From Centipeda periodontii DSM 2778 (GTDB taxonomy: Bacteria; Bacillota; Negativicutes; Selenomonadales; Selenomonadaceae), in assembly GCF_000213975.1 (NCBI RefSeq), contig NZ_GL892076.1, positions 2,030,125 to 2,094,124 of the forward strand: DNA of 64,000 nucleotides. Direction: 5' to 3'. Made by a program: the position numbers and the translations under genes. Of this stretch, positions 41,230 through 59,106 are shown piece after piece; positions within the stretch are counted from its first letter, which is position 1, and each line of letters begins with the position of its first letter. The notes beneath the pieces were generated by a model. The model ran no database searches. It saw only the letters and a program-made list of their open reading frames with translations, and was not told where the DNA came from.

Positions 41230-42198
41230 TTACAAAATCCCCAACGCAAAGCGCTGCGTCCGCAATTTCTGCTCCAAGTCCGCCCGCGATCGATGCAGGA
41301 ACTCGTGGACGAGATAATCCGGCTGAACCATATCGACGATCCTGCGCGCTGCCTCTGTCCGGAACGGCTCATGACGATCGACATGGCGCACGTAGTCCAT
41401 CGTCTCCCGCCAATCGAGGGGATGAAACTCGCCCATGTGCCGATGTATCATCTCCCGTGTATACGCACCGGAAAGCGACTGATGCAGGTGAACCCCGCAG
41501 ATGCGCTTGCCCAACGCCCCGAGCGCGTGATAGATCTTCGCCACATATGCAGCACCGTCGGACTCGCTTCGCAGATCGAAGTTCGTGTTCATCAGATGCC
41601 CAACATCCAGCATAAAACCTGCATTGTCATAGTCGATTCGCTCCAGGAGCATTTCGGCAAGATGCGGTTCACGAAAAGTCAGCCCCGGCCACCAAAGATT
41701 TTCAAAGAGGAGCCGACATCCCTGCGGAATTTCACGCGCAATTTCATTCACGAGCTCAATCGTCGCACGGATGACAGACTCATCCGACATGGAAAATCTT
41801 CGCGCATACATCTCCGATGTCCGATTGTGTGCGACATGAAAGATGATATAATGCGGCTGACATTCCGCCGCCTGCCTCAAATTTTCCTTCCACGCCGCCA
41901 CCCAATCACCGGTATCCAGTGAACCATAATATCTGCGGATATTCTCCTCACTGCCGAACTCCTCCATGAGCGCAACACGATCGCCGCGCCAAAAATCCAC
42001 CCATGTCGGCCAGAACATGAGATGCACGCCCTTGATATAGGTCGGTGGAAACATCACGCGATCCCACGGCGCACAGAGCATGAATTCGATGCCGTCCAGC
42101 TCATGTACGCGCAGGAGCGTCGGAAGAGTGTCCGCACTGTTTTGCAGCACATTCTCCACATCACAGTCCGCATTGGAGAGATTCGTCAGTGCAAGCAT
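41230..42198 (-). CDS. xylose isomerase-like TIM barrel protein
   Basis: The 322-residue protein belongs to the AP_endonuc_2 sugar epimerase/isomerase superfamily. LLFENLWWPGLTF, AGFMLDVGHLMNTN and ICGVHLHQSL supply the usual Glu, Asp/His and His metal ligands, and HYIIFHVAHNRTSEM is a fourth strand motif. Similar proteins are found next to corrinoid and metallophore uptake genes, but no substrate is established to my knowledge. It is co-oriented with the tetrapyrrole locus and is the first gene after an AT-rich palindromic control region. Confidence 0.82.
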   Translation of the reverse strand: MLALTNLSNADCDVENVLQNSADTLPTLLRVHELDGIEFMLCAPWDRVMFPPTYIKGVHLMFWPTWVDFWRGDRVALMEEFGSEENIRRYYGSLDTGDWVAAWKENLRQAAECQPHYIIFHVAHNRTSEMYARRFSMSDESVIRATIELVNEIAREIPQGCRLLFENLWWPGLTFREPHLAEMLLERIDYDNAGFMLDVGHLMNTNFDLRSESDGAAYVAKIYHALGALGKRICGVHLHQSLSGAYTREMIHRHMGEFHPLDWRETMDYVRHVDRHEPFRTEAARRIVDMVQPDYLVHEFLHRSRADLEQKLRTQRFALGIL

Positions 42199-42288: not shown

Positions 42289-44298
42289 TTAGAACTTATA
42301 GCTGTAGCTGAGGAGATAGTTGATTGGGGCATTGTGATAACGTGCCCCACTGTGCATCGTCGTATCGTCGCGGTCAAGCACGTTGTCGATGCACAGGCTG
42401 ATCTCGCTGTTCTCATCGGGTGCATAGGTTGTGTTCCACGTAGTGAGCAGATATGGCTTTACCGCGCTTGGCTTCTCTCGTGACGGAAGAACCACACGGC
42501 TGGCCAGATAGGTTGCCGTGAGTGACGATGTCCACTTATCCTTCTGGTAGGTCACACCGCCCGTAAGCTGAACTTTTCCAAAGGTACGATACCACCCGCC
42601 CGGGCGGTCGGTGTTGTTCGTCTGAGGGTTCTGCCATGTCACGCCCCATCGATAGGAGAGCCCGTGTGTCCCGCGAATCTCGTCGGACAGCTCAATCCCC
42701 GTATTGCGAAAATCTTCGTTGACATACTTATACTCCGTTTTTCCGCGTTCCACCGATGCCGTAATATTATCCTTGATATCGATATGGAACAGCGCTGCTT
42801 TCCATGTGTGCCCGCCATGATTTTTCTTCCAGCCGATTTCATAGTTGACACCCTTTTGCGGTTTCAGATTCGGCGCAGCTTTTTGGCGGTCATTATTTGG
42901 GTACATCTGGGAAAAGGTCGGCATGACAAAGGACTGACTGACGTTCAGATAGAGACTGTTGTCGCGATTGAGCTTATGCAACCACTGCCCCGATGCACTG
43001 AGATTGTTATAGTTTTGCCCGCGCGCAGCTCCTGTCGTCCACGTCTCGCGTAGACCGAAGATCCCCGTATTTTTCTCGTCAAATTTCTGCTCCCACTGCC
43101 CAAACACACCCCAGTTATTGCGTGTATAATGTGATGCCGCCGCCGTCGTTCGTGTTTGCAGAACGTCATAAACCTCATGCGCCAGATTGACCCCCGCAAT
43201 CGCGGTAGACTTTTTGCCGATACGCCATGTGCGCTGTAAGTCCAAACCGTATGTCGTGTTCTTTTCGCGTGTGTTGTACCACCCATTCGGTGTTCTTCTT
43301 CCGACTGAGGAGATGAGATTTGGTCCCATCGACTCAATCGTCCCCGTATTGAAATACAGGCTTCCCTTCCAGTCTCGATCCTTATAGTTGATCTGTGTTG
43401 TATATCGCTTTGTCGTATACTTACGCGAATTATACGGCTCGCCCACACGAATGCCATTGGTACTGAGAGTGACCTCCGAGAATATACGGTCGTACCTTGC
43501 CTCCGTTTCATAGTAACTCAAAAGAAAGTCGAGATGCGGATTCACTTGATACGTAAATCCTGCACTTTGCTTTTTTATATTGTGTATATCCGTACGCGTT
43601 TCTCCTGTGAGTTGCGGGACTTTGCTGCTGTTTAGCAGATTTACATCTGCATAGGTGATACCGTCCCTGCGGCCAAACTTATCATAATTGTAGTATAAAC
43701 CAAATTTTTCATCCCCGACACTCACGCCGTAGCTGCGCTGTCCATAGTTGCCAAAGCCTGCATGAACAGCGTTTTCCGTCTTTTTCTTCGTGATGATATT
43801 GACAACACCGGCTATCGCCTCACTGCCATAGAGGACAGAGCCGCTTCCCTTAACGATCTCAATGCGCTCAATGCTGCTTGCAGGGATTGCATCGAGATTG
43901 TACTTGCCGCGCCATGCAATTGGATTGCCGTTCATGAGCACGAGTGCACCACTTCTCACGCCGCGTACATTCAGTTCATTCGTCATCGTTCCCATCGATG
44001 CGCCGTTCGGTCCGAAAGCTTTGTAAGTAAAGCCATCCACTTTCTCAAGCACATCCGAAACATTCGCTGCGCCGCTGTTCTTGATCTCATCTGCCGTGAT
44101 AACGGTCGTCGCGGCGGGCACATCGATATCCCGCTTCTGAGTGCGCGTTGCCGTCACGACAACCTCGCCAAGCGAATACGAGGGCAGCAGTTCATCATCT
44201 CCTGTTCCCGTATGTGCGGTCTCTGCCGCATAGACATGCCCCGTCATCGCCGAAAGCGCAACTGCTGCTGCAAGGAAATTTTTACGCCACATCTTCAT
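42289..44298 (-). CDS. TonB-dependent outer-membrane receptor 2
   Basis: The 669-residue protein has a signal peptide (ends near AYAAET), TonB-box-like GEVVVTATRTQ, a plug with VITADEIKNSGAANVSDVLEKVDG and GSGSVLYGSEAIAGVVNIITKKK, and a barrel ending in SYSYKF. It is only distantly related to receptors 1 and 3 and resembles BtuB/HmuR-type receptors in length. It lies 20 bp downstream of tonB and is translated from the ATG at 44298, seven bases after GAGGAG. Confidence 0.95.
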   Translation of the reverse strand: MKMWRKNFLAAAVALSAMTGHVYAAETAHTGTGDDELLPSYSLGEVVVTATRTQKRDIDVPAATTVITADEIKNSGAANVSDVLEKVDGFTYKAFGPNGASMGTMTNELNVRGVRSGALVLMNGNPIAWRGKYNLDAIPASSIERIEIVKGSGSVLYGSEAIAGVVNIITKKKTENAVHAGFGNYGQRSYGVSVGDEKFGLYYNYDKFGRRDGITYADVNLLNSSKVPQLTGETRTDIHNIKKQSAGFTYQVNPHLDFLLSYYETEARYDRIFSEVTLSTNGIRVGEPYNSRKYTTKRYTTQINYKDRDWKGSLYFNTGTIESMGPNLISSVGRRTPNGWYNTREKNTTYGLDLQRTWRIGKKSTAIAGVNLAHEVYDVLQTRTTAAASHYTRNNWGVFGQWEQKFDEKNTGIFGLRETWTTGAARGQNYNNLSASGQWLHKLNRDNSLYLNVSQSFVMPTFSQMYPNNDRQKAAPNLKPQKGVNYEIGWKKNHGGHTWKAALFHIDIKDNITASVERGKTEYKYVNEDFRNTGIELSDEIRGTHGLSYRWGVTWQNPQTNNTDRPGGWYRTFGKVQLTGGVTYQKDKWTSSLTATYLASRVVLPSREKPSAVKPYLLTTWNTTYAPDENSEISLCIDNVLDRDDTTMHSGARYHNAPINYLLSYSYKF

Positions 44299-44318
44299 TG
44301 TCATTCTCCTCTATAAAA

Positions 44319-45077
44319 TTAATTCAACTGGAAACGAAACGTCTTTGTCCAAACACCTCTCCGTCCGTTATCCCCCGGATTAAAGCGAAAGCGCCACCCC
44401 GCGGCGACCGCCGCTCTGTCCATCGCGCGATAGCCCGATGAGGACTCAACGCTGACGGATTCCACGGAGCCATCCGCCGCCACAAGGATCTTGATCGTAA
44501 CCACCCCCTCCACATCATCATCAATGAGCTCCTGCGGGTACTCCGGAACAGCCTCTGAACGAAGGCTCGCCTCCACGCGTTCTTTCGGCGGTGCAGCAAC
44601 AGAACCAATCCCGGGGCTCCCATCTCCGCTTCCATCTCCGCCCTCAGTTCCGCTCCCTGTTCCTGATCCGCTGCTCGTTCCGGCAGAGGAAGTCTCTGTC
44701 CCGCTGCCCGAGCTGCTGCTCTCCCCCGCTGATCCCGTCTGCACCGCATGCACAGAATTCTGTACCGTGCGTGGTGTATTCTGCTGCGGTTTTGTTTGCG
44801 GCTTCTGCTCCTCCTGCTGCACGATATTTTTATCCTGCACAACGATGTCATCCATCGTCACCACAGGAGCGGCGGCCGGAGCAGCATCACCGGCGGCGCT
44901 GCCCGTATCGCCGCCCGCATCGTAGAGCACAACGTCGATGGGCGCTCTCTTTCCGGACGGCTCCGCAACGGAGAAGAGCCCACACGCCGCCGCGATCAGA
45001 AAAAGTATGAGATGCAGGATCAGAGAGCCTGCAAGAGCTTTGCGTTCACCGTCACGTTCCATCACATTTTCTTCCAT
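44319..45077 (-). CDS. tonB: energy transducer TonB
   Basis: The 252-residue protein has an N-terminal membrane anchor (SLILHLILFLIAAACGLFSVA), a long linker and a C-terminal TonB domain (YPQELIDDDVEGVVTIKILVAADGSVESVSVESSSGYRAMDRAAVAA). The linker is dominated by Ser, Gly and Thr (about 115-160) instead of the Pro-Lys/Glu repeats of enteric TonB. ExbB and ExbD are not encoded nearby. The start lies 1 bp after the permease stop, so it is coupled to the ABC transporter genes. Confidence 0.93.
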   Translation of the reverse strand: MEENVMERDGERKALAGSLILHLILFLIAAACGLFSVAEPSGKRAPIDVVLYDAGGDTGSAAGDAAPAAAPVVTMDDIVVQDKNIVQQEEQKPQTKPQQNTPRTVQNSVHAVQTGSAGESSSSGSGTETSSAGTSSGSGTGSGTEGGDGSGDGSPGIGSVAAPPKERVEASLRSEAVPEYPQELIDDDVEGVVTIKILVAADGSVESVSVESSSGYRAMDRAAVAAGWRFRFNPGDNGRRGVWTKTFRFQLN

Positions 45078-45078
45078 G

Positions 45079-46116
45079 TCATGCCACCATCTTCATATGC
45101 CTGCGCAGGAGATACAGGAAGTAGGGCGTGCCGATAAACGCCGTCATAATGCCGACACGAATCTCCATCCCATGAAGCAAAATGCGCCCGAGCGAATCAC
45201 AGAGCACGAGGAATACGGCACCTGCCAAGAGACTCGCGGGCAGCAGGCGGCGATGGTCGGGACCGATCAGGAGGCGCACCATATGCGGAACAACGAGTCC
45301 CACAAAGCCGATGTTGCCGCTGATGCAGACGCCTGCCGCCGTCGTGAGCGAGGCGAGTACGAGGAAGAGCAGGCGAAACGCCGTCACGGGCATGCCCGCT
45401 GCGCGCGCCTCCACCTCGCCGAACGCAAGCAGGTTCAGATGCCGCGCGAGGAGCACCATGACGGATGCACCGACGCCGATCGGACCTATGCCGAGCAGGA
45501 CATGATCCCAGCGCCGATAATCGAGTCCGCCGATCGTCCAAAAGAGGTACTGCTGCATCTTCTGCTCGTTCATCACCGTGAGAATTGCTGCCGTGCACGC
45601 CGCGAGGAACATTCCCACCACAACACCTGAGAGCAGGAGTGTCATAACCGGGATCCGCCCGCGCCGCATCGACAGCGATACGGTCAGCCCCACGGCAAGG
45701 ATTGCCCCCGTAAAGGCAAAGGCGGGCAGCGAGAGCACGCTCCTCGCCGTCACCCCGATGCCGATGGCGAGCACCGCACCGACGGAGGCACCGCTCGATA
45801 CGCCGATGATGCCGGGATCGGCAAGAGGATTGCTGAAGATCCCCTGCAGAACCGCACCCGAGACACCGAGCCCCGCACCGACCATCATGCCGACAAGTGT
45901 ACGCGGGAGGCGGATATGCCAGAGCACCGCCTCCTGCTCGGGCGTCACGACAACATCCGTAAAGATAGGAAGCCCTGCCGCATGTGCAAAGGAAGCAACG
46001 ACCGCCTCCATCGGGATATCGTACTGCCCCGAGCTCATAGACAGGAGGATCGCAAAGAGGAGCGCTCCAACGAGAGCACATAGAAAGAGCTGTGTTCGAT
46101 GCTGTCCAAAACTCAT
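45079..46116 (-). CDS. FecCD/BtuC-type ABC permease
   Basis: The 345-residue membrane protein has about ten helices and the family phrases LPRTLVGMMVGAGLGVSGAVLQGIFSNPLADPGIIGVSSGASVGAVLAI and GNIGFVGLVVPHMVRLLIGPDHRRLLPASLLAGA. This family moves cobalamin, haem or ferric siderophores. It overlaps the ATPase gene by 4 bp (ATGA) and is followed immediately by tonB. Confidence 0.95.
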   Translation of the reverse strand: MSFGQHRTQLFLCALVGALLFAILLSMSSGQYDIPMEAVVASFAHAAGLPIFTDVVVTPEQEAVLWHIRLPRTLVGMMVGAGLGVSGAVLQGIFSNPLADPGIIGVSSGASVGAVLAIGIGVTARSVLSLPAFAFTGAILAVGLTVSLSMRRGRIPVMTLLLSGVVVGMFLAACTAAILTVMNEQKMQQYLFWTIGGLDYRRWDHVLLGIGPIGVGASVMVLLARHLNLLAFGEVEARAAGMPVTAFRLLFLVLASLTTAAGVCISGNIGFVGLVVPHMVRLLIGPDHRRLLPASLLAGAVFLVLCDSLGRILLHGMEIRVGIMTAFIGTPYFLYLLRRHMKMVA

Positions 46117-46964
46117 ACCGTCACCACCTCTTTCTCCGATCTTCCGAGGATCACGCTGAGGAGCTGCGCGCTCTCTCCCCCGTCCACCTTCGCCTCCGTA
46201 TACACCTCTGCATGATGTGTCAATGGGTTCTCAACAACGCGCACAGGCGCTCCATATGCCCGTGTCAGGAGCTCATCTGTCAGCACATCGCGCGGTGCTC
46301 CATCGGCGAGAAGTTTTCCATGACCGACGAGGAGGAGCCGCGAGCAGAAGCGTGCGGCAAGACTCAGTTCATGCGCAACCAGCAGTACCGTTTTGCCCGC
46401 CGCACAAAGGTCCCGACAAAAGCGGAAAATCTCCTCCTGATAGATAATGTCGAGTCCCGTTGCGGGTTCGTCGAGGAAAAGCACGGGCGTCTGTTGGGCG
46501 AGCACCTTTGCGAGCAGGACGCGCTGACGCTGCCCGCCCGACATGGCGTGTAGCGGCGTATCGGCGAGCTCCGATACACCTGTATACGCCATACAGGCAT
46601 CGGCAATCGCAAGATCATCCGCCTTTTCCTGACTCCACCATGAGAGATAGGGGTAGCGACCAGCGAGCACAATATCTCGTGCCGTATATGCAAAGGTCAT
46701 CTCCATGTGCTGCTGCAGATATGCCACACGGCGTGCAAACTCCTTTGCTTCAAGCGCATGGATGTCATCCCCCATCAACACAGCACTCCCGGACAGGATC
46801 GGAAGTATTCCGCGCAACGTCTTTAGAAGTGTGCTCTTGCCCGCGCCGTTGGGTCCGATCAGCCCGACAATCTCCCCCGTCCCCACGGTGAATGACACAT
46901 CCTCGAGGATGACCTTTCCGTTATACCCTGCATAGAGATTTTCCGCACGGATCATCTCGTTCAA
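46113..46964 (-). CDS. FecE/BtuD/HmuV-type ABC ATPase
   Basis: The 283-residue ATPase has GLIGPNGAGKSTLLKTL (Walker A), the signature MSGGQRQRVLLAKVLAQQTPVLFLDEPATGLD and an H-loop VLLVAHELSLAARFC. It pairs with the FecCD permease encoded downstream. The best start is TTG at 46964, 7 bp after AAGGGGG; an ATG three codons later has no ribosome site. The C-terminal extension beyond residue 230 is typical for corrinoid and haem importers. Confidence 0.93.
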   Translation of the reverse strand: MNEMIRAENLYAGYNGKVILEDVSFTVGTGEIVGLIGPNGAGKSTLLKTLRGILPILSGSAVLMGDDIHALEAKEFARRVAYLQQHMEMTFAYTARDIVLAGRYPYLSWWSQEKADDLAIADACMAYTGVSELADTPLHAMSGGQRQRVLLAKVLAQQTPVLFLDEPATGLDIIYQEEIFRFCRDLCAAGKTVLLVAHELSLAARFCSRLLLVGHGKLLADGAPRDVLTDELLTRAYGAPVRVVENPLTHHAEVYTEAKVDGGESAQLLSVILGRSEKEVVTV

Positions 46965-46986
46965 ATAAAATCCCCCTTCCACACGG

Positions 46987-47973
46987 TTACTTCACTGCAG
47001 AAAGATGTTCATCCTCACCCTGCTTAAATTCATCGCCGTAAACACGATAGGCAATCTCCTGCACACCGAAAACGAAATCCTGCGAACAGTTGTAGATGTA
47101 ACCTTCAAACGGCTCCGCAAAAGCCTCATTCCGGATCGCCTTCATCGTCTGCAGGGATGGATCGTCCAAATACTCCCTGCGGAATTTCTCCACATCGTAT
47201 TTCCCATGATCGTTGTACGTCGGCAGGAAGAGAATATCGGGATCAATCTGGACAAGCTGCTCCTTCGTCATGACTTGAAAGTCACGAATGCCGAGTTCTG
47301 CACGCCCATTGATCACGCCCGCATAGTGACACGCCTCGTCAAAGCTACTGCCGAGTCCGCCGTAGCCCGACATGAGCGAGATGAGGACAACACGCTTGCG
47401 CTCGGTCTGTGGAATTTTCGCGACCTTTTCCTGAATCTCCGCGAGCTTTGCATCCATCATCGCGCGGAGTTTTTGTCCGCGCTCCGGCACCCCCGCCGCC
47501 GCCGCAAGGAGTTCGATCGTCTCGCGAATCTCTGCAAGATTCGATGCGCCCTTGCAGACGATGACTTTGAGTCCCACCTCTCGCAGGGAGGGCACCATCG
47601 TAAGATCACCCCAGTCCGGAACGACGACGAGATCGGGCTGCAGCGCCATGATCTCCTCCACCGTCGGATTTCCGATGCGCTGCGGAATCTCCTTGACGAG
47701 TCCTGTGACATTGGAGCTCACAGGATCATCGAGCAGCGTATTGACCGCCGCCATACGCTGCGGCTCGACGAGGCCGAGCATCGTTTCATCCGTGCTCATC
47801 GAGAGTGTGACGATGCGCTTTGGCGGTGAGGGGAAGTCAACGACCGTCCCCTCAATATCCGTAACCGTATATGCCGCAGGCTTCTCCTCAGCCGACTTTG
47901 GCATGCTGCACGCCGTGAGCAAGACACACAGCATACAGAGAAAAACCACAGGGAGCTTTTTCTTTAACAACAT
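46987..47973 (-). CDS. FecB/BtuF-type substrate-binding lipoprotein 1
   Basis: The 328-residue protein has a lipoprotein signal (LLTACS, Cys22) and a periplasmic-binding fold of the helical-backbone type used for corrinoids, haem and siderophores. Marker segments are PPKRIVTLSMSTDETMLGL, ALQPDLVVVPDW, KVIVCKGASNLAEI, SGYGGLGSSFDEACHYAGVING and YIYNCSQDFVFGVQEIAYRVYGDEF. The last two recur in lipoproteins 2 and 3, so the three share an origin and probably ligand type. It immediately precedes the ATPase gene in transcription order. Confidence 0.93.
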   Translation of the reverse strand: MLLKKKLPVVFLCMLCVLLTACSMPKSAEEKPAAYTVTDIEGTVVDFPSPPKRIVTLSMSTDETMLGLVEPQRMAAVNTLLDDPVSSNVTGLVKEIPQRIGNPTVEEIMALQPDLVVVPDWGDLTMVPSLREVGLKVIVCKGASNLAEIRETIELLAAAAGVPERGQKLRAMMDAKLAEIQEKVAKIPQTERKRVVLISLMSGYGGLGSSFDEACHYAGVINGRAELGIRDFQVMTKEQLVQIDPDILFLPTYNDHGKYDVEKFRREYLDDPSLQTMKAIRNEAFAEPFEGYIYNCSQDFVFGVQEIAYRVYGDEFKQGEDEHLSAVK

Positions 47974-48006: not shown

Positions 48007-49284
48007 CTATGAAAGAGAGATCTTTCGCCGCAAAATATTGCCGTTCCACAGCTGCTCTTCGATATGGCGTGCACCGCGCAGTCCCATAAAGGGAACATCC
48101 GTCAAACGCAGTGCATCCTGTACGGGATAGGATATAGGAAGGTATTGCGTCCCCTTCGGATCGATATGCGCCGACTCATTGCTGCTGCCGAGCAGCAGTC
48201 CACCCTCCATCGCAGAGAGGATCTGCTGTATCCGCACGGCATCCGTTTCTCCCGGAATCTCGTCCGCAATCTTCATGACTTCCTGCGTGCGCTCAGCCTC
48301 CGCCGCCACGGCGAGGTGGCAGACATCTGCCCACTCCGTCCGCAGCGCATGGGCAATCCCCCATGCAACGGAGCGCGGCGCACGAATGAGCGCCGTATCG
48401 TAGCGGAGCTCCCCCCACAGGCTCTTGCACTCGTTGATACGCAGGAAGTCCTCGCACGTCACACGTGCGATCTCTGCCTCTGTTTCATCCCCGCGCACAG
48501 GCGGCAATGCACGCGCAATTTCTTCCAGCCAGCGCCGCGTCCCCGCACGTCCATACGGCGGCAGAGGTGCAATATAGGGCGTACTGCAGATATCCTCCAG
48601 CAAGCGAGCGCTCTCAAGCCCCAATTCATCATGCACCACAATGTTCAGCGCTGCACGCGACAGAGTGCAAAGTTCCGCAGCGAACATCTCGCTGCCAAAG
48701 ACTGCATGCACTGTATAGCCTGCCATCTCGAGCAGACGCACGAGCTCGCGCACATCATTCCCGCCGTTGTAATAGGCACTCGTCATGCCGATCAGATTGA
48801 CCGTATTCACCTGAGGCTCCTGCCGCTCCGGCAGGAGCACCGAAAGTGCAGTGTGCGCCGCCTTGTCCCATCCGTCCGCAAAGCTGCCAACCAATCCGCT
48901 CGTGTCAAGCGCGACAATCGGACAGGTGATCCCGGCTCCGTGTGCAATCGCCTCGATATCATCCCCGATCAGCCCTGCCGCACAGCTGCTGACGATGGCA
49001 AGCAGCGCAGGCGGCTGCTCCACATAGGGGACAAGTGCATCGTGCAGATATTCCTCCGCGCCGAATACAATCGCGTCGTTGTCGAGCTGCGTACAGATCA
49101 TACGATGCGAGATCGTGCTTTGGCTATGCTCGATGTGACGCATCGCAAAGAAATAACACCAAAGCGGGCCGTTGACGACAATGACCGCATCCTGAATCCC
49201 TGCGAAGAACGCCGATGCACCTGCAAGAGCGCAGGTGTCCGTGCACATGCAGACATCATCGAAGGATTTTTCGCACTCATCCAT
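48007..49284 (-). CDS. nitrogenase component 1 family protein (NifD/NifK-like), subunit B
   Basis: The 425-residue protein belongs to the oxidoreductase/nitrogenase component 1 family, which includes NifD/NifK, BchN/BchB, BchY/BchZ and CfbD. It has cysteines at 12, 14 and 18, then Cys43 in VVNGPLWCYFF and Cys101 in SSCAAGLIGDDIEAI. These are the positions at which the family binds its bridging Fe-S cluster. It overlaps the preceding component gene by 8 bp. It is about 425 residues, shorter than true NifD/NifK, and lies outside any nif context. It probably forms a heteromer with the product of 49277-50584, receiving electrons from the NifH-like protein. Confidence 0.9.
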   Translation of the reverse strand: MDECEKSFDDVCMCTDTCALAGASAFFAGIQDAVIVVNGPLWCYFFAMRHIEHSQSTISHRMICTQLDNDAIVFGAEEYLHDALVPYVEQPPALLAIVSSCAAGLIGDDIEAIAHGAGITCPIVALDTSGLVGSFADGWDKAAHTALSVLLPERQEPQVNTVNLIGMTSAYYNGGNDVRELVRLLEMAGYTVHAVFGSEMFAAELCTLSRAALNIVVHDELGLESARLLEDICSTPYIAPLPPYGRAGTRRWLEEIARALPPVRGDETEAEIARVTCEDFLRINECKSLWGELRYDTALIRAPRSVAWGIAHALRTEWADVCHLAVAAEAERTQEVMKIADEIPGETDAVRIQQILSAMEGGLLLGSSNESAHIDPKGTQYLPISYPVQDALRLTDVPFMGLRGARHIEEQLWNGNILRRKISLS

Positions 49285-50584
49285 AGATCAGCCCTCCCCT
49301 GCTCTCATGCCTGTGCAGGATCTGACGCATATCATCGAGCAGGCGCCGCTCCATCGACCAACCGACCGACGGCAGTAGCGCGAGAAAGAGCTGGCGCAGC
49401 TTCGCATCGACGAGTTCGTGCGTCGTGAGGACAAAATCTACCGCGTGCAGCAGTTTCTCCGCTGCGGCATCCCCCTCATGATAAATAGATACATCCGTTC
49501 TGCGGCGCAGTTCCTCCTCCATCACTTCGCACCGCGCAGGCATAAAGCAGTCGAGCAGAATGATACCGGTCAGTTCCACCCCCACCCGTTTCAGAAGACG
49601 CAGAACGATCTCCGGCTGGAACCATGTAAGATCGCGCCCGATTGCCAGCACACAGCGCCGGCTCGCGAGATCAACGCGTGCCTTTTCCACGGCGCCGGCA
49701 AAGGATTCCTCCTCAACCGCAATGGCGCGCTCTGCCGCCTCCTCACGGTGACAGAGCTGACCAACACGCCGCAGCCAGACCTTCGTCTCCTCCGCTCCGA
49801 CCGCATAGATATCTCCGAGATACGGCGTGCCGAAGCGCTCCTTCATATGCTCGGCGAGTTCCACCAACTGCGCCTGTTTCTCATCGTCCATGCGGCGCCC
49901 GAGCAGGATGATGAGCTCCGCCTCCGGCACCGCCTGCAGTTCATCGAGTGCAAGATAGGAGGGAAACTGTGCCGTGACGCGCAGATCGAGCAGAGAGAGC
50001 AGACGACGCAATTCTTTTACATATTCTCCATGCATGCCGCCGCAGTCACCGAGCAGGGCAATCGTCCCTTCTCTTCGCCGTGCGGCGGGCTGCATAAAAC
50101 GATCCACGAGCGCACGCGCGGCATCAAGATACCCCGCATAGTATTCACCGTCGAGAAAACCGTGCGCCGATACCGCCGTGACAGGCAGCCCCAGTTCCTC
50201 CTCCATCTCCGCCGCAATCGCCTTCGTATCGTCACCAATCACGCCGCTGACACAGGAGTTTGCAATGAATACCGCCTGCGGATGATATTTCTGTGCGGCA
50301 AAGCGAACGCACTCCCGCAGGCGCTCCTCCCCGCCAAAGACCGCCTCGCTCTCCCCAAGCCCGCTCGTCAGGAGAGGAACGGGAGAGAGACGTACCGACG
50401 TTCCCGCCGCCGTCAACCGATGGAAGCTGCTCACATCCATCCCGTGCGCAATGTGTGCGCATGGACGCGGGCTGTGGAAGACGACAAGGGCACCGCGCAC
50501 AAAGGAGAGCGCACGCCAGACGCCCGGCATACTGCAGCTGCAGTTTGTACGGCGCACACCGACGCGTTTGACCTCAATCCCCAT
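49277..50584 (-). CDS. nitrogenase component 1 family protein (NifD/NifK-like), subunit A
   Basis: The 435-residue protein is a second member of the nitrogenase component 1 family. Candidate cluster ligands are Cys15/Cys17, Cys42 in HSPRPCAH and Cys111 in [13 protein letters not shown]; the segment [25 protein letters not shown] is the usual helix before the third cysteine. Its ATG at 50584 overlaps the end of the NifH-like gene by 11 bp and its own end overlaps the next component gene by 8 bp. The three therefore form a strictly coupled H-D-K-like set. FeMo-cofactor insertion genes (nifE, nifN, nifB) are absent. Confidence 0.9.
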
Positions 50585-51386
50585 AGCTCTCCACCAGATC
50601 CTCAAGTTCCTCGAACTCCATCGGTGTCGGTATGGTCAGCATCTCATTCGTATCGATCTCCTGCGCGAGTGCCGTATAGTGCTGCGCCTGTTCCGACTCC
50701 GGCGCATAGGCGATGAGCGTCTGCCGGTGAATCTCCGCCTCGTGCACGGCACGGGAGCGTGGAATGTAGGCGATTAGCTGCGTGCCGAGCCGTGCGGCAA
50801 ACGCCGCGAGAAGTTCGCGCTCGTTCAGCACATCACGCCCGTTGCCGATGATGCCGCCGAGCTTTACCGCGCCGCGCGCGGCAAAGCGACGCACCCCCTT
50901 TGCAATGTTGTTTGTCGCATAGAGCGACATGAGCTCACCTGAGGAGACGATGTAGATCTCCTCGGCATAGCCCTCGCGGATCGGCACGGCAAAGCCGCCG
51001 CAGACCACATCGCCGAGGACATCATAGAGCACGACATCCAGATCGTCAAAGGCATGAAGTTCCTTAAGGCGCTCAAGTGCAACGATAATCCCACGCCCCG
51101 CACAGCCGACCCCCGGATCCGGTCCGCCGGCCTCAATGCAGCGAATGCCGTTCCAGCCCTCATGTATGATGTCTGTGAGCGTCAGCGCCGCACCCTTCTT
51201 CTCCCGCTCCAGATCGAGGATCGTGGAGGGTGCAATACGTCCGAGCAAGAGACGGGTCGAGTCATTCTTCGGATCGCAGCCGATCTGGCAGACGCGCCGC
51301 CCCATGCGCGAGAACGCGGCAGATACGTTTGCGGCTGTTGTGGACTTACCGATGCCGCCCTTGCCGTAGAACGCAATTTTTTTCAT
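50574..51386 (-). CDS. NifH/BchL-type ATP-dependent reductase
   Basis: The 270-residue protein is a nitrogenase iron protein homologue. P-loop GKGGIGKST is at 8-16. The two cysteines that hold a [4Fe-4S] cluster across the dimer are Cys95 in GVGCAGRG and Cys129 in [12 protein letters not shown], and switch I contains the CDPKNDST segment. It hydrolyses ATP to drive low-potential electrons into its partner, here the two component 1 proteins encoded downstream. Known relatives reduce N2, protochlorophyllide, chlorophyllide, Ni-sirohydrochlorin diamide or thioethers. Context with CobN and CbiZ favours a tetrapyrrole. Confidence 0.95.
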
Positions 51387-51395
51387 AGGATCACC

Positions 51396-52382
51396 TTATT
51401 CCACGGCGGTGAGGAACTCATGCCGCGACTGTTTGAACTCGTCACCGTAGAGAATCCACGCCGTCTCCTGAATACCATACACAATGTCCTGCGAGAGATT
51501 GTAGACATAGCGCGCCCACGGATGACCGATCTGCCGCTCCCGCACGGCGGTCATCTGCGCAAGTGAGGGATCCTCCAGATACTGACGTCCGTAGTTCTCC
51601 TCATTCGTCGCGCCGTCTTCATAGCTTGGGAAAAAGAGATAGTCCGGATTCGCCGCGACGAGCTGCTCCTTCGTCATCTCTTGCCCCATGCGGTTTCCTG
51701 CCGCCGCCTTCGCGTTGATCGAATCCGTATAGCGGCAGAGCTCGTCAAAGGTGCAGCCGGCACCGCCGTAGTTCACCATGATGGAGATGAGTGCAATGCT
51801 CTTATGCTTCTTCTCCTCGGGAACCTTTTCCACCTTGGCGCGAATCTCCGCGAGCTTTTCCTCCATCATGCCGATGAGCTTCTCCCCGCGCTCCACTTCG
51901 CCGACAGCCGCCGCATAGAGTCGGATATTATCGTGAATATCCTCCATGGTCGCAGCAGATTTACAGACGAGAACGGGGACATTCAGCTCGCGGATGGCAT
52001 CGATGTTCTCGCGCGGCATCCACGGTGTCACGACGACGAGATCCGGATGCAGTGCGGCAATCTGTTCGACGGACGGGCTGCGGGGGATGACCGTCGGAAT
52101 CCGATCGCACACCCACGGGATATTCGTATGCTCCCGATCGGCGAGCGATTCATTGATCGCCGCCATGCGCTCCGGCTCCACAAGGCCGAGCATCAGCTCG
52201 TCCGTCCCCGCGCTGACCGTCAGGATGCGCTGCGGCTTGTGTTCAAACGTGACGACCGTGCCCTCCACGTCTGTGATTTGATAGCCGCCCGCCTGTTGCT
52301 CCGAGGAGTTTATGCAGCCGCCGATCAACAGCGCGGCAAAAATCACCGTGAGCGCAGCGAGTGCACGCATATGCCTTCTCAT
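51396..52382 (-). CDS. FecB/BtuF-type substrate-binding lipoprotein 2
   Basis: The 328-residue protein has a lipoprotein signal (LIGGCI, Cys23) and the same fold as lipoproteins 1 and 3, with PQRILTVSAGTDELMLGL, ALHPDLVVVTPW and YVYNLSQDIVYGIQETAWILYGDEF. It differs from the other two in having YNLSQD instead of YNCSQD and MVNYGGAGCTFDELCRYTDSI instead of the GSSFD-ACHYAGVING form, so it may hold a different ligand form. Its ATG overlaps the CobN stop by 4 bp, tying it to the chelatase and to the NifH-like gene 9 bp downstream. Confidence 0.92.
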   Translation of the reverse strand: MRRHMRALAALTVIFAALLIGGCINSSEQQAGGYQITDVEGTVVTFEHKPQRILTVSAGTDELMLGLVEPERMAAINESLADREHTNIPWVCDRIPTVIPRSPSVEQIAALHPDLVVVTPWMPRENIDAIRELNVPVLVCKSAATMEDIHDNIRLYAAAVGEVERGEKLIGMMEEKLAEIRAKVEKVPEEKKHKSIALISIMVNYGGAGCTFDELCRYTDSINAKAAAGNRMGQEMTKEQLVAANPDYLFFPSYEDGATNEENYGRQYLEDPSLAQMTAVRERQIGHPWARYVYNLSQDIVYGIQETAWILYGDEFKQSRHEFLTAVE

Positions 52383-55300
52383 CGTGCGCCCTCCGCCCGT
52401 TCCTCAAGATCGCCCTCGATGGAGAGGTAGAGACTGCGCAGTTCGGCAAGCGTATCCTCGGATGCGTTCCACAGTCCGCGCTGCTGTGCCTCAAGCAGGA
52501 CCTCCGCCATGCGGTGAAGCGCCCACGGGTTGACATCCTCCATCCACTCCTGCATCTCCGCATCCAGTACATATTTGCGCGCGTAGCCTTCGTACATCCA
52601 GTCCTTCATTATAGCACTCGTCGCATCCCACTGGTAGCTGTGCGCGAGATAGTTCGCGAGATCGGATGCGCCTTTATAGCCATGTTTCTTCATGCCCTCG
52701 ATAAACTTCGGATTCATCGCCTCCCCGCGGAAGAGGCGTGCCGCCTCCTCCGCGACGCTGCGCAGAACAATGCGCTGCCGATCGCTCGAATCGCCCGTGT
52801 AGGATCGCGGTGCCTTGCCCGTCAGTGCCCGCACGGTCGCAATCATGCCGCCATGGTAGGCGTTGTAGTCATCGGAGCTGAACATATGCGTCTCGCGCGT
52901 ATCCTCATTCTTGACGGTAACGTCGAGCCCCGCCATGCGCCGCTGAAAAACCTCCGGATCATAGCCGCGCGCCATTCCATCGCCGCCGTATGCCGTCCCC
53001 GAAAAGCGCGTATAAACGGCGGCAAGATCATCCAATGTCTCCCACGCCTTTGACTCAAGCAGAGCAGCAACACCAGCACCATAGACGCCCGGCGGATCGC
53101 CGAAGATACGGACGGAGGCGCGCTCCCACGCATTCTCCCGTGCCTCGCCCTGCTCCTCAAGCCATGCGGTATCTGCGAGAACGTGCTTGCGCACATAGTT
53201 CTCCTCATCGCTCTCATCGAGATCGCGCACCATACGCACCGCCTCGTCCACCCAGTGTACGGCGTTCGGGACGGCATCGCGGAACAGGCCGCTGATGCGC
53301 GCCGTCACATCGATGCGCGGTCGCCGCAGCTCCGCTATCGGGATGACATCGAGTGCACAGACACGCTGTGACGGACGCCGCCATACGGGACGAACGCCCA
53401 TGAGATAGAAGAGCTCTGCGATGCACTGCCCGTGGCTGCGCATATTCGAACCCGCCCAGAAGACAATGCCAACCGCCTCGGGATAGCGCCCCTCATCGCT
53501 GATGTACTGCTCGATGAGTGCGTCGCCCAGCTGTTTTCCGTACTCCCATGCTGCGGGCGTCGGCATGCAGCGCGGATCGAGCCCGTAGAAATTCCGCCCC
53601 GTCGGCAGTACATCGACGCCATTTGTCGTCGGTGCCCCCGCAGGGCTCGGTTCGATATATCTGCCCGTGAGTGCCCGCAGCGTCTCCGTGATCTCTCCCT
53701 CTGTCCGGCGCAGACGCGGCACCATGTCCGTCACAATCTCGTGCAGTGCATGGGCAAATGTGGCACGCTCCTCGGCAGAGGATGCGGCAATAACAGGGAG
53801 CCTCATCGCCCGCTCGACCGCCTCCGGCGCATAGTCATGTGCACCAAGGAAGGAGATCAGCGCACGCATCTCCGTCTCGACCGCATCCAGCTTTCTGCCG
53901 TAGGTCATGCCGTCCGATGTCATACGCTCGCTATGCGTGAGCAGATCCTCATAGTCATAGCCCGCCTGCTCTGCAATAAGACGGATAAGCGACTTCTCCC
54001 CGCCGTGCTCCATGCGAACGAGCGCGCACAAAAAGTCGATGAGCTGTTCCCCCTCCGGCATGCGCCCGAGGATATGCAACCCCGTGCGGATCTGCATATT
54101 CTTGATGTCCGTCACATAGTTGTGAAGCGCTGCAGCATAGTCGTCGAAGTTCGCCCCCTCTTCGATCTCATCCTCGAAGTGACAGGCAGCAGCCTTCTCT
54201 CGGACAAGCATCTGCGCAGCCTCTATATTGTCCGGCTGTGACGCACGAAAATGAACGTATTCATCGAGCGCCTGCTCAAGCTCTGCCAGCTCCTCAAATC
54301 CGCCCGCCATCTCCATCGGTGGCGAGAGATGACTAATCAGGCATGCCGCACCGCGCCGCTTTGCCTGCAACCCCTCCCCGACAATCGTGATCCAGTAGGG
54401 ATAGATGTCCGGCAGGTCGCCGAGCGACACATCTGGGTAGCAGGCATTCGAGAGCCCCGTCCCCTTGCCGGGCAGCCACTCAAGCGAGCCATGCGTCCCG
54501 ACGTGAATCACCGCGTCCGCCTTCCAGATGTCGCGCAGCCAATGATAGTAACCAATGTAGTGATGCGTCGGCGCGGCGTCGGGCGAGTGCAGGAGCTTGC
54601 CGGGATCCTCGCCGAAGCCGCGCGGCGGCTGCACCGTGATAAAGATATTTCCATTCAGCGTGCCCGGAATGAGGAGCGCACCGTCGTAATTGAACACGTC
54701 CCCCGGAGCCTCCCCCCAGTCCCGCACAAGCTGCACACGCACCTTCTCGGGCAGTTCCTTGAAGAATGCTCCGTACTGCGCCGCCGTCAGCTGCCCGTCG
54801 GCAGCCTTTGCCTGTTCCACGCTCATGAAGCGGCGGTCGTTCGTCGCGTGATCCGTCAACAGCTTCATAAACGCCTTGCTGCTCTCAGGAATCTCATCCA
54901 TGACATAGCCGGCGGCACGCATCGCCGTCAGCAGACGGAGCACGCTCTCGGGGGAATCCAGTCCCGCCGCACTGCCGATGTTTGAATTCGTCGGCGGATA
55001 GTTATGGAAAACGATCGCAATCTTTTTCTCCACGTTTGGCTTATGCCGCAGTGCCGCCCACTTCCGCGCCTTACGTGCGATCCGCTCCATGCGCTCATCG
55101 AGCGCCGCATAGCTGATCTCTCCGCTCTCGTCGCGCACCTTCGCTGCGATCGGTACGGCATGGATCACACCGTCAAACTCCGGCATGGCGACGCTCATCG
55201 AAACTTCCATGGGGTCAAGCCCCGCCGGAGATTTCTCCCACTCCTCCTTCGGAGCGAGCACCGTGTACGCCTCGAGGACGGGAACCCCGAGCGCATAGAG

Positions 55301-56062
55301 ATCCTCGATGCGCGTTCCGCCCGCCTTGATGGAGAACTTCATCGTGCTGATGATGACATCGACAAAGGGATGCCCATCCCTGCAAAAATATTTCTCGATC
55401 GCCGCCATCAGCGTCGGCGACTCCACGCGTTCATCGCGGTAGGAATTCGAGAACACAGCGACCGCATTCATCCCCTCCGCCTCGATTGCACGGACGAGTG
55501 CCGCATGATAGGTAAAGTCTCCCGTAATCCATTCCGAGCGGTAGAAAATCACGCCGACCGTCGGACGCCCCTCCGTATAGTGGGACGCGAGATAGCCCGC
55601 AATGTCCTCGGGATCCCCCGCCCAGTTTGGATGGTAGACACCGTTCCACGCAAGCGGCGCGGGCGGCTCTGCTGTGCAGGAAAGCCCCCCGAACTCCCTG
55701 CCGAGCCAGAGAAAAAGATTGCGCATATTCTCCTCGCCGTCATAGCGAAAATATGCCCACGCCGTCCGGATCTGCTCCTCCGAAAAGCCGTACGTCACCT
55801 TGTCATGTTCCGCATTGTCCACGACAATCAGATGCGGAATACGATGCTTCTGTAAGAAGCGCGATGCCTTCTTCAGGAATTCATTGTCGAGACCCGTACC
55901 CATCCAAAGGAAGAGATGAAGATCCGCATCCGCGCGTACCGCATTCCAATCGTCCATGCCGCTGACAGAGCATACGCACACCTCGGGTTTCGCCATATCG
56001 GCGGCGCATCGGCGCGCGAGCACGCGAACACGCAGGATGTTCGTATAGACTGCTATCCTCAT
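52379..56062 (-). CDS. cobN: CobN/BchH-type metal chelatase large subunit
   Basis: The 1227-residue protein is full length for the CobN/BchH/HmuS superfamily. Recognisable blocks are the N-terminal ALGVPVLEAYTVLAPKEEW, the NYPPTNSNIGSAAGLDSPES segment, AVIHVGTHGSLEWLPGKGTGLSN, RPVWRRPSQRVCALDVIP and GVYGAGVAALLESKAWE. CobN inserts cobalt in the aerobic B12 pathway, BchH inserts magnesium, and the related HmuS is linked to haem use in Bacteroidetes. The start at 56062 has AGGAGG 6 bp upstream and overlaps the CbiZ stop by 4 bp. ChlI- and ChlD-like subunits are encoded just upstream in the same operon. An anaerobe with this gene need not use it for de novo B12 synthesis. Confidence 0.94.
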   Translation of the reverse strand: MRIAVYTNILRVRVLARRCAADMAKPEVCVCSVSGMDDWNAVRADADLHLFLWMGTGLDNEFLKKASRFLQKHRIPHLIVVDNAEHDKVTYGFSEEQIRTAWAYFRYDGEENMRNLFLWLGREFGGLSCTAEPPAPLAWNGVYHPNWAGDPEDIAGYLASHYTEGRPTVGVIFYRSEWITGDFTYHAALVRAIEAEGMNAVAVFSNSYRDERVESPTLMAAIEKYFCRDGHPFVDVIISTMKFSIKAGGTRIEDLYALGVPVLEAYTVLAPKEEWEKSPAGLDPMEVSMSVAMPEFDGVIHAVPIAAKVRDESGEISYAALDERMERIARKARKWAALRHKPNVEKKIAIVFHNYPPTNSNIGSAAGLDSPESVLRLLTAMRAAGYVMDEIPESSKAFMKLLTDHATNDRRFMSVEQAKAADGQLTAAQYGAFFKELPEKVRVQLVRDWGEAPGDVFNYDGALLIPGTLNGNIFITVQPPRGFGEDPGKLLHSPDAAPTHHYIGYYHWLRDIWKADAVIHVGTHGSLEWLPGKGTGLSNACYPDVSLGDLPDIYPYWITIVGEGLQAKRRGAACLISHLSPPMEMAGGFEELAELEQALDEYVHFRASQPDNIEAAQMLVREKAAACHFEDEIEEGANFDDYAAALHNYVTDIKNMQIRTGLHILGRMPEGEQLIDFLCALVRMEHGGEKSLIRLIAEQAGYDYEDLLTHSERMTSDGMTYGRKLDAVETEMRALISFLGAHDYAPEAVERAMRLPVIAASSAEERATFAHALHEIVTDMVPRLRRTEGEITETLRALTGRYIEPSPAGAPTTNGVDVLPTGRNFYGLDPRCMPTPAAWEYGKQLGDALIEQYISDEGRYPEAVGIVFWAGSNMRSHGQCIAELFYLMGVRPVWRRPSQRVCALDVIPIAELRRPRIDVTARISGLFRDAVPNAVHWVDEAVRMVRDLDESDEENYVRKHVLADTAWLEEQGEARENAWERASVRIFGDPPGVYGAGVAALLESKAWETLDDLAAVYTRFSGTAYGGDGMARGYDPEVFQRRMAGLDVTVKNEDTRETHMFSSDDYNAYHGGMIATVRALTGKAPRSYTGDSSDRQRIVLRSVAEEAARLFRGEAMNPKFIEGMKKHGYKGASDLANYLAHSYQWDATSAIMKDWMYEGYARKYVLDAEMQEWMEDVNPWALHRMAEVLLEAQQRGLWNASEDTLAELRSLYLSIEGDLEERAEGAR

Positions 56063-57159
56063 ATCGTCCCTCCTGCCGGCAATTTCTCTGCCCTTGCACA
56101 GACCGCGTCCACCAGAAATACTGCCATTGCCTGCATATAGTCCTCCCCCGCCTGCCGCTCCGCAGGCAGCGGAACATCGGCGCAGCGTGCCATCTCCGTG
56201 AGAAAATACGCTCCTGCCGCGTGCGTTTCCTCCTCCGTGAGCAGCCCCCACAGGAACTCGTCATAGATGTGGATATAGCTCACGCCAAGCGCAAAAACTC
56301 CCGAACACGCTCCGATCTCATGGAGAATGTGCAGGAAACGCGGTTTGATAAGGTGCACGTCCTGCATCCGCCTCTCATAGTCACGCCAGAGCGTGTCGCC
56401 TGTAATCCCGAAACGGCGCAGACGGCGCAGGAGGTTATGCTGATGTTCTGGAGTCAGCCCCGACTGCTTTCCCAGCGTCTCCTTGACGGCAGCGATGACC
56501 GCCTGACCGATCAACTCGCCGAGCTTGGAGTGTTTGCCCGCCCCCTCAAAATAGAGCGGCGACTCCGTATTGGCAACGACGATGGTCTGATCGGTGCCCG
56601 AGCCCGTGGCAAGCCCGCAAGAGTATCGGCTCTCCGCCATGAGTTCCTGTAGCGCCGCCGTCTTTGCCTCCGTACACGTAACAAGGGCGCGCGCGAGAAT
56701 CCCCGGCGGCAGATCGGCATCGATCACAAGAATGATGTTGATCGTCCCACATTTCTTTGGTACCGTCTTGTAATAAGATGCCGGGTCGCCAACGCGTCCG
56801 CCGTTCGTCTCCACGCCCCCCGTCACAAGGGCAGTCACCGTGAGTTCCTTGTAGCTGCGCGACTGCACGGAGACATTCTCCATCTGTGCGGCAGTTCCCA
56901 TCCCCGTCGTGCGGTCAGGATCCAGCCCGATCCTCTGCGCGACGATACGCATGCTCTCCACATAGGTGTCCGCAAACGTCTCGCAGGGCATGCCCGCTCC
57001 CTGCGTCATGTCGCGGTTGAACACCGCCGTAAAGTCCTCATGATACCCGCCGTTATACAGCGAGGTACTGAGCACCTTGCGCGGACCGGAAAAGAACAGC
57101 GCGATGCTCTTGTCATAGCGGTAGGCTACGTCTCCCGTTGTCAGTTTGGTCAGTTCCAT
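56059..57159 (-). CDS. cbiZ: adenosylcobinamide amidohydrolase family protein (CbiZ) with long C-terminal extension
   Basis: The 366-residue protein carries the CbiZ signature SCGLATGSGTDQTIV (180-194) and the TALVTGGVETNGGRVGDPASY block (109-129). CbiZ hydrolyses the aminopropanol amide of adenosylcobinamide so that salvaged corrinoids can be remade as the preferred cobamide. Residues after about 200 form an additional helical region, longer than in stand-alone CbiZ, with no motif I recognise. The gene sits between ChlD-like and CobN genes, overlapping CobN by 4 bp. It is the best direct evidence that corrinoids are one substrate of the locus. Confidence 0.88.
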   Translation of the reverse strand: MELTKLTTGDVAYRYDKSIALFFSGPRKVLSTSLYNGGYHEDFTAVFNRDMTQGAGMPCETFADTYVESMRIVAQRIGLDPDRTTGMGTAAQMENVSVQSRSYKELTVTALVTGGVETNGGRVGDPASYYKTVPKKCGTINIILVIDADLPPGILARALVTCTEAKTAALQELMAESRYSCGLATGSGTDQTIVVANTESPLYFEGAGKHSKLGELIGQAVIAAVKETLGKQSGLTPEHQHNLLRRLRRFGITGDTLWRDYERRMQDVHLIKPRFLHILHEIGACSGVFALGVSYIHIYDEFLWGLLTEEETHAAGAYFLTEMARCADVPLPAERQAGEDYMQAMAVFLVDAVCARAEKLPAGGTI

Positions 57160-57182
57160 GCGCTCTCTGTGCCTCCTGCCGC

Positions 57183-59084: not shown

Positions 59085-59106
59085 AATCTTTCCTCCGAAA
59101 AAAGTT

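Follow-up and report, generated by a model that had tools for sequence, protein, structure and literature searches.

The 64,000-nt stretch of the Centipeda periodontii DSM 2778 genome analyzed here (contig NZ_GL892076.1, positions 2,030,125 to 2,094,124 of the forward strand; hereafter, the window) encodes a nitrogenase-like gene set, H, D, and K (HDK), which probably forms a two-component reductase that uses ATP to reduce a tetrapyrrole, either a corrinoid or a direct corrinoid precursor. The basis for this assignment lies in the genes themselves, the clades in which they fall, their cysteines, the absence of cofactor ligands, the BchB-like fold of K, the gene neighbors, and the riboswitches; from these we infer the cluster type, the corrinoid as substrate, and the step performed. 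All three genes are encoded on the minus strand. H (50574–51386), identified from the list of open reading frames (ORFs), profile matches, and a motif check, encodes a NifH-like Fe protein of 270 residues. D (49277–50584; 435 residues) and K (48007–49284; 425 residues) encode the alpha-side and beta-side subunits of component 1, respectively, and were assigned by profiles, phylogeny, alignment, and fold. D is counted from an ATG codon; its mechanical ORF begins at a TTG at position 50605. The ORF coordinates bear out the overlaps described in the initial annotation (11 bp between H and D, and 8 bp between D and K), and H retains the P-loop (GKGGIGKS), Cys95, and Cys129, as had been proposed.

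H matched PF00142 over its full length (E = 5.2e-111), and scored 392.9 bits against the NifH model TIGR01287, slightly below the cut-off of 394.35. The P-loop and the two cluster cysteines were found together in all 33 H rows examined, including that of the window. D and K matched PF00148 with E-values of 2.9e-57 and 1.1e-57, and the family match is, therefore, not due to chance. Sequence searches of the PDB and the family models agreed on an Fe protein plus two component 1 subunits. H is a nitrogenase-superfamily Fe protein, and D and K are component 1 proteins of the same superfamily by domain and fold.

The cluster ligands were evaluated in an alignment of D (A3) comprising 58 of 66 loci and the window (59 rows; loci L033–L037 and L039–L041 excluded), and in an alignment of K (A4) comprising 57 loci and the window (58 rows), from which the same eight loci, the partial L060, and the extra K-like rows of L067, L086, and L095 were excluded. 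Cys17, Cys42, and Cys111 of D were conserved in all 59 rows, and Cys18 and Cys43 of K in all 58, while Cys101 of K was conserved in 56 of 58, the exceptions being serines in second-copy pairs of Selenomonas (L038 and L042). These D and K columns align with the P-cluster cysteines of NifD and NifK. The initial annotation had proposed a wider set as candidate ligands of a bridging Fe-S cluster, Cys15/17/42/111 in D and Cys12/14/18/43/101 in K. All of these residues are present at the proposed positions, and three per subunit are conserved, but Cys15 of D and Cys12 and Cys14 of K vary across the clade, so that the conserved set is narrower than had been listed.

The column of the NifD cofactor ligand Cys275 contained cysteine in none of the 59 aligned D sequences, and the His442 column was a gap in all 59. 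No NifB was detected over the cut-off in the C. periodontii genome (best match 23.2 bits, compared with a cut-off of 343.65). PF00148 matched four proteins in this genome, the D/K pair of the window and one paralogous pair; the latter falls within the same D and K clades, and so is not NifEN. A cofactor of the iron-molybdenum (FeMo-co) type is unlikely, judged from the sequences, because both ligands are absent, no NifB exceeds the cut-off, and NifEN is missing. The same conclusion had been drawn in the initial annotation, and the ligand alignment that it named as a check, directed at Cys275 and His442, gave the absence of both from D. Nitrogen fixation by a NifHDK-type enzyme was rejected on the same three grounds, and HDK almost certainly does not fix nitrogen.

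The paralogous pair of C. periodontii (L005, 12997–15574; C1 near 700 kb) is about 60% identical, and neither H nor a chelatase was found in L005. Cys101 of K is replaced by serine in this pair, as well as in the second-copy pairs of other Selenomonas (L026, L028, L038, and L042). The second-copy pair of L026 has its own H gene.

A component 1 tree was calculated from 104 of 106 rows (L139_18907 and L103_12571 were dropped, and the length filter removed a weak second D-like ORF of L067). The D rows formed one clade of 26 and the K rows one clade of 27, each with a Shimodaira–Hasegawa-like approximate likelihood ratio test (SH-aLRT) support of 98. None of the NifD/E, NifK/N, Bch, CfbD, or array rows fell within either clade, in a tree without named Mar or Isr sequences; the placement of the Bch rows is unsure in the trees, owing to long branches. 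The extra K-like row L067_2721 fell outside the K clade on a long branch. The H rows formed one clade of 19 (support 97), separate from the CfbC and NifH rows.

Single-chain AlphaFold models, with predicted local distance difference test scores of 88.5 for D and 91.5 for K, were compared with known structures. The top ten structural matches of K were all BchB/ChlB subunits of the dark-operative protochlorophyllide oxidoreductase (DPOR; best Z score of 38.7, root-mean-square deviation (rmsd) of 2.8, 405 aligned), followed by methylthio-alkane reductase at a Z of 36.9, and the beta chains of Nif, Vnf, and Anf at about 31–34. D best matched a methylthio-alkane reductase subunit (PDB 9d9u; Z of 26.4, rmsd of 4.8), and NifD, NifEN, and DPOR chains scored at most about 2 Z units lower. 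Glu220 of K was conserved in 58 of 58 sequences and is shared with one BchB, one BchZ, and one CfbD reference; an equivalent was found in none of eight other beta-type (Nif- or array-type) references. With so few references, and a CfbD alignment that is unsure, this sharing is only a hint. Asn214 and Trp252 of K are invariant as well.

HDK resembles DPOR (BchL-BchNB) in combining an Fe protein with a two-gene component 1, in lacking FeMo-co, and in the BchB-like fold of K. The initial annotation had suggested a DPOR-like working and a layout closer to BchNB than to the single-subunit CfbD. The fold of K and the two-gene layout agree with this proposal, but the cluster does not. The NB-cluster of DPOR is ligated by three cysteines of N and one aspartate of B, whereas HDK has three cysteines in both subunits, in the P-cluster pattern, with cysteine in 58 of 58 K sequences where BchB has aspartate. 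D and K also form clades of their own, and the neighbors of HDK are of the B12 type rather than the chlorophyll type. In the model scores, H reached 392.9 bits with NifH and 369.5 bits with CfbC (cut-off 402), compared with 224 bits with BchL. D and K scored 60.8 and 71 bits against BchB (TIGR01278; cut-off 490.35), 30.5 and 37.9 bits against BchN (TIGR01279; cut-off 419.95), and 35.8 and 45.6 bits against CfbD (TIGR03282; cut-off 268.4). CfbCD is likewise a nitrogenase-like reductase that acts on a tetrapyrrole, but CfbD is a single subunit of about 360 residues, while HDK has two subunits, is bacterial, and is accompanied by B12-type uptake genes. Membership of HDK in the exact DPOR or CfbD family was rejected on the model scores and the cluster ligands.

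The corrinoid substrate class is suggested by the genes that lie beside HDK, which the initial annotation had omitted. HDK is part of a run of 17 whole genes on one strand (39224–63309), with gaps of at most 90 bp and several 4-bp overlaps, that resembles a cluster for the uptake and processing of vitamin B12. Downstream of K on the minus strand, as are all genes of the run, lie a periplasmic binding protein of the metal-chelate/B12 type with weak and mixed model matches (SBP1, 46987–47973), a BtuD-like ATPase (46113–46982; 244.3 bits with the corrinoid ATPase model and 240.3 bits with the heme ATPase model, both below cut-off), a BtuC-like permease (45079–46116) whose best model is the vitamin B12 BtuC, below cut-off, a TonB assigned by Pfam (44319–45077), a TonB-dependent receptor (42289–44304) for which siderophore and heme models score slightly above B12 (heme 133.3 bits, B12 123.2 bits), a PF01261 TIM-barrel protein (41230–42198), and a second TonB-dependent receptor (39224–41143) with TonB-B12 as its best model, below cut-off. 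Homologs of the TIM-barrel protein occur in 8 of 31 dereplicated HDK loci.

Upstream of H, a second binding protein of the same type, again with weak and mixed matches (SBP2, 51396–52382), is followed by the large subunit of a CobN-type class I chelatase (52379–56062, taken from the first in-frame ATG at 56062; the mechanical ORF extends to 56251). This CobN scored 942.7 bits against TIGR02257, over the cut-off of 822.05, and its best PDB match was the solved CobN structure 7c6o (780.8 bits, compared with 391.2 bits for HmuS). Next to it are a CbiZ-domain protein of the adenosylcobinamide amidohydrolase family (56059–57186; 375 residues including a C-terminal extension; PF01955, E = 3.7e-61), a ChlD-like chelatase subunit with AAA and VWA domains (57183–59210), whose start codon is unsure and whose ORF overlaps that of ChlI, and a ChlI-like chelatase AAA ATPase (59107–60138). 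The ChlI- and ChlD-like genes, assigned by models and Pfam, matched chelatase models with E-values of 5.5e-128 and 3.3e-171, below the cut-offs. The run is completed by a third TonB-dependent receptor (60224–62119; best model TonB-B12, below cut-off) and a third binding protein (SBP3, PF01497, 62158–63309; start unsure). Part of a radical SAM/SPASM protein (63174–63995) runs off the window; Pfam gave no match to this fragment, and the whole gene in L120 gave a 44% match to the SPASM reference.

The distribution of HDK was examined in a scan of named genomes, from which the best 80 of 191 candidate loci were kept. These 80 were mostly from Negativicutes (Selenomonas, Mitsuokella, Megamonas, Schwartzia, Phascolarctobacterium, Sporomusa, Pelosinus, Dialister, and Succiniclasticum), with Pelotomaculum and a metagenome-assembled Acholeplasmataceae genome outside this class; the last of them are distant homologs from Coriobacteria, methanogens, Moorella, and others. 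Clustering of 66 loci at 75% D identity gave 35 representatives, of which the 31 of at least 13 kb were used, with homologs counted anywhere in the fetched stretch. A chelatase (CobN, ChlI, ChlD, or CbiK) was present in 23 of the 31 loci, CobN in 18 (two of them broken, L059 and L062), BtuC in 18, a TonB receptor in 16, SPASM in 13, CbiZ in 9, CbiK in 5, and CobO in 4. Among 60 genomes (C. periodontii and 59 relatives), CobN was found in 18 of 18 with close HDK, compared with 5 of 42 others (p = 4e-11); counted by genus, the values were 5 of 5 and 5 of 40 (p = 2e-4).

Cobalamin riboswitches suggest a second link to B12. Rfam scans covered 45 of the best 80 loci (44 of the HDK clade plus L097), the window, and seven control loci with other nitrogenase-type genes, five of which (L101, L103, L106, L107, and L108) also came from the best-80 list. 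RF00174 was detected in 15 of the 44 HDK-clade loci and in none of the seven controls. In 12 of the 44, the riboswitch shares the strand of the HDK genes and is located upstream of them. It directly precedes H in seven of these (L050, L053, L057, L059 from Sporomusa ovata, L068, L069, and L085), at 10–192 nt from the H ORF; CbiK intervenes in L045 (together with a short ORF), L046, L086, and L095, with D following CbiK in the latter two, and one other ORF intervenes in L062. The riboswitches of L052, L063, and L092 lie elsewhere in the locus. Cobalamin riboswitches usually act by repression with cobalamin; if so here, the operon would be wanted when B12 is scarce, and such a demand fits salvage or synthesis, and fits disposal of B12 badly.

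In Pelosinus, D-K-CbiZ-CobO is followed downstream by an extra K-like gene (L086, 10674–12029; L095, 13496–14824) that is preceded by a cobalamin riboswitch of its own, and no H gene was seen within the fetched stretches of these two loci. In Schwartzia, a ZMP/ZTP riboswitch is found just downstream of K (L046, 11344–11424; L045, 11337–11417), before another ORF.

In chlorophyll synthesis, Mg chelatase acts before DPOR and chlorophyllide oxidoreductase. In F430 synthesis, nickel is inserted by CfbA and the ring is later reduced by CfbCD, according to the accessible part of PMC7242693. The known tetrapyrrole reducers of the superfamily act after a chelatase, and HDK is placed beside a chelatase, CobN or CbiK, in B12-type uptake clusters. 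Another chelatase-reductase pairing is found on a plasmid of Roseobacter litoralis, where bchB and bchL flank the gene for the chelatase H-subunit.

In the mechanism that we propose, H would hydrolyze ATP and, from its [4Fe-4S] cluster, pass low-potential electrons to another Fe-S cluster, for which D and K would each supply three cysteines. This cluster would directly reduce a bound tetrapyrrole, which would occupy the position of the FeMo-co cavity, as in DPOR. The setting would be an uptake-and-salvage module, in which the receptors and the BtuFCD-type transporter import corrinoids, CobN-ChlI-ChlD (in some species CbiK) acts as the chelatase that handles the metal, the metallated tetrapyrrole is reduced by HDK, and adenosylation by CobO and trimming by CbiZ follow where these are present. 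CbiZ acts on adenosylated cobinamide.

The step performed may be the reduction of Co(II) to Co(I) before adenosylation, which would make HDK an anaerobic counterpart of CobR, or, with the same tentative standing, reduction of the macrocycle, by analogy with the relatives of HDK. A step that enables cobalt removal or exchange appears unlikely, and some other step equally so. The aerobic trio CobN-CobR-CobO combines chelation, Co(II) reduction, and adenosylation (PMC7242693, accessible part), and proteins of the CobN and CobO types adjoin HDK; by this analogy, HDK together with CobN and CobO could make up an anaerobic version of the trio, although CobR is a flavoenzyme and HDK would be its ATP-driven Fe-S counterpart. 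A more far-reaching proposal, which we regard as doubtful, is that a branch of the superfamily serves B12 by ATP-driven reduction of the corrin ring or its cobalt, giving either a still-unreported reduced cobalt tetrapyrrole or, with CobN-ChlI-ChlD, cobalt exchange in the intact corrinoid. To our knowledge, cobalt exchange in an intact corrinoid without loss of the ring has no chemical precedent.

Several observations weigh against a corrinoid reductase that works with CobN. For one receptor and for the ATPase, heme and B12 models fit about equally well, and CobN, at 933.1 bits, falls short of the NF004646 cut-off of 1468, while its score with the BchH model (825.8 bits) is barely below that cut-off (829). 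The D model fits known structures only at an rmsd near 5 Å, and the position of BchB Asp274, a proton donor, is a gap in all 58 K sequences. No cobalamin riboswitch was found in the window or in 29 of the 44 HDK-clade loci scanned, and the contrast with the controls is weak (Fisher p = 0.09), the controls being mostly from other classes. No chelatase was present in the fetched stretch of 8 of the 31 dereplicated loci, and 14 of the 18 genomes with close HDK belong to one genus. In 14 genomes behind 15 loci, most of them chosen for an absent or broken CobN next to HDK (G068 is apparently the same as G032 by coordinates), CobN was found somewhere in 10 and in none of the other 4, which include Pelosinus propionicus. 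In two Sporomusa species, the CobN beside an intact HDK is frameshifted and shortened (L059, 5457–7204; L062, 737–3610), although both genomes have other, whole CobN genes. The sole CobN of a Schwartzia genome (G032) is far from HDK, and three genomes (G019, G021, and G025) have CobN-ChlI-ChlD without HDK, so neither CobN nor HDK strictly needs the other. Finally, Co(II) appears to be reduced by free flavin before adenosylation (PMC7242693, accessible part), and a dedicated cobalt reductase may, therefore, be unneeded.

One alternative to the corrinoid reading is a heme route. In this scheme, heme would be imported, the CobN-like protein would strip its iron, and HDK would supply electrons or reduce the freed porphyrin, as an ATP-using cousin of the HmuS of Bacteroides. 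The nearly equal ATPase scores and the heme-leaning receptor at 42289–44304 would fit such a route, and CobN-family proteins can be heme de-chelatases, HmuS requiring NADH (PMC12583661, accessible part); the CobN-like BtuS1 and BtuS2 of B. fragilis similarly serve the use of heme iron (PMC6460266, accessible part). HmuS is characterized by the heme axial ligands Met79/His254 and a Met-rich insertion. HmuS and the window CobN both belong to the CobN family and are both encoded in uptake operons of anaerobes, but the accessible part of PMC12583661 mentions no nitrogenase-like partner for HmuS, and the window CobN is far closer to CobN, exceeding the TIGR02257 cut-off and scoring twice as high with 7c6o. 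The presence of ChlI, ChlD, and CbiZ, of CobO in some loci, and of cobalamin riboswitches upstream of HDK in the 12 loci described above also argues against a role in heme-iron use, which is a weaker rival of the corrinoid reading and which we judge distinctly improbable. A heme de-chelatase partner was set aside as first choice on the CobN scores.

HDK might instead serve de novo B12 synthesis, by replacing CbiJ or by reducing cobalt-factor III or cobalt-sirohydrochlorin in the way that CfbCD treats its nickel compound. The occurrence of CbiK (PF06180, cobalt chelatase) in 5 of the 31 loci is in keeping with this idea, as is the reduction of Ni-sirohydrochlorin a,c-diamide by CfbCD (PMC7242693, accessible part). 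However, CbiJ and CbiD were each found in 56 of the 60 genomes, including that of C. periodontii, where they lie about 0.5 Mb from the HDK cluster, compared with close HDK in 18 of 60, and HDK is placed among uptake genes. HDK is, therefore, no stand-in for CbiJ, a role that was rejected, and a de novo step as a whole is unlikely. A complex cofactor made by the nearby radical SAM/SPASM protein, with HDK reducing a small substrate in the manner of the methylthio-alkane and isethionate reductases, is very improbable. These Group IV enzymes share with HDK a two-subunit DK and an Fe protein, a methylthio-alkane reductase chain is the best PDB match of D by both sequence and fold, the 9d9u entry names a P-cluster, and a SPASM gene is present in 13 of the 31 loci. 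Against this stand the 18 loci in which no SPASM gene was seen, the peptide maturases that are the best models of the SPASM protein, and the lack of Cys275 in all 59 D sequences, with nothing aligned at His442. Unnamed array D references (L103, L104, L138, and L139), unlike D, keep cysteine at the Cys275 column, and a radical SAM B protein is part of the Isr, Mar, and Nfa sets (PMC11423573, accessible part), whereas only some HDK loci contain a radical SAM gene.

The superfamily and some of its functions are known. Clades that lack the cofactor ligands have been reported, and cobalamin reduction has been guessed for single NflD genes, as given in the accessible part of PMC3464626. No report of the HDK clade, its chelatase link, or its riboswitches was found in searches of the open-access literature, which misses most subscription papers, nor was a description of the step proposed for HDK. 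For many nitrogenase-like enzymes of Group IV, no substrate is known, and here the riboswitches and the recurrent chelatase suggest a substrate class for a whole clade. In the genomes scanned, this clade occurs mostly in Negativicutes, of which many come from the gut, mouth, or rumen, and it is present in cultured species such as Sporomusa ovata. If HDK does act on corrinoids, a chelatase paired with a nitrogenase-like reductase, as is known for chlorophyll and F430 synthesis, would also occur for B12, and the CobN genes of anaerobes with the early-cobalt pathway would gain a context. The function of CobN-annotated proteins without cob neighbors, most of them archaeal, is called unclear in the accessible part of PMC12583661.

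Several further arrangements were observed among the relatives. The radical SAM/SPASM gene recurs in HDK clusters (L051, 8107–9168, and 15 other loci; L120, 299–1579), often next to CobN or ChlI, and its closest models are peptide maturases. In G046, which was counted as being without close HDK, a 229-residue ORF that is weakly K-like (L116, 12252–12941; 25% identity, 55.5 bits) adjoins a CobN-SPASM-ChlI-ChlD cluster that also contains CbiZ- and CbiK-like genes. In two coriobacterial loci (L097, 7798–9999; L098, 7774–10002), the H-like protein carries a long in-frame extension (733 and 742 residues), and a K-like gene adjoins it; nifH-nifE fusions were mentioned earlier, as data not shown, in the accessible part of PMC3464626. 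Contigs of Negativicutes, including L138 and L139, contain arrays of other nitrogenase-like DK genes, and 26 matches to D, at an E-value of 0.001 or better, were obtained in one relative (G053). At the other end of the window from the HDK run, a 16S rRNA gene on the minus strand (1–98) is cut by the window start.

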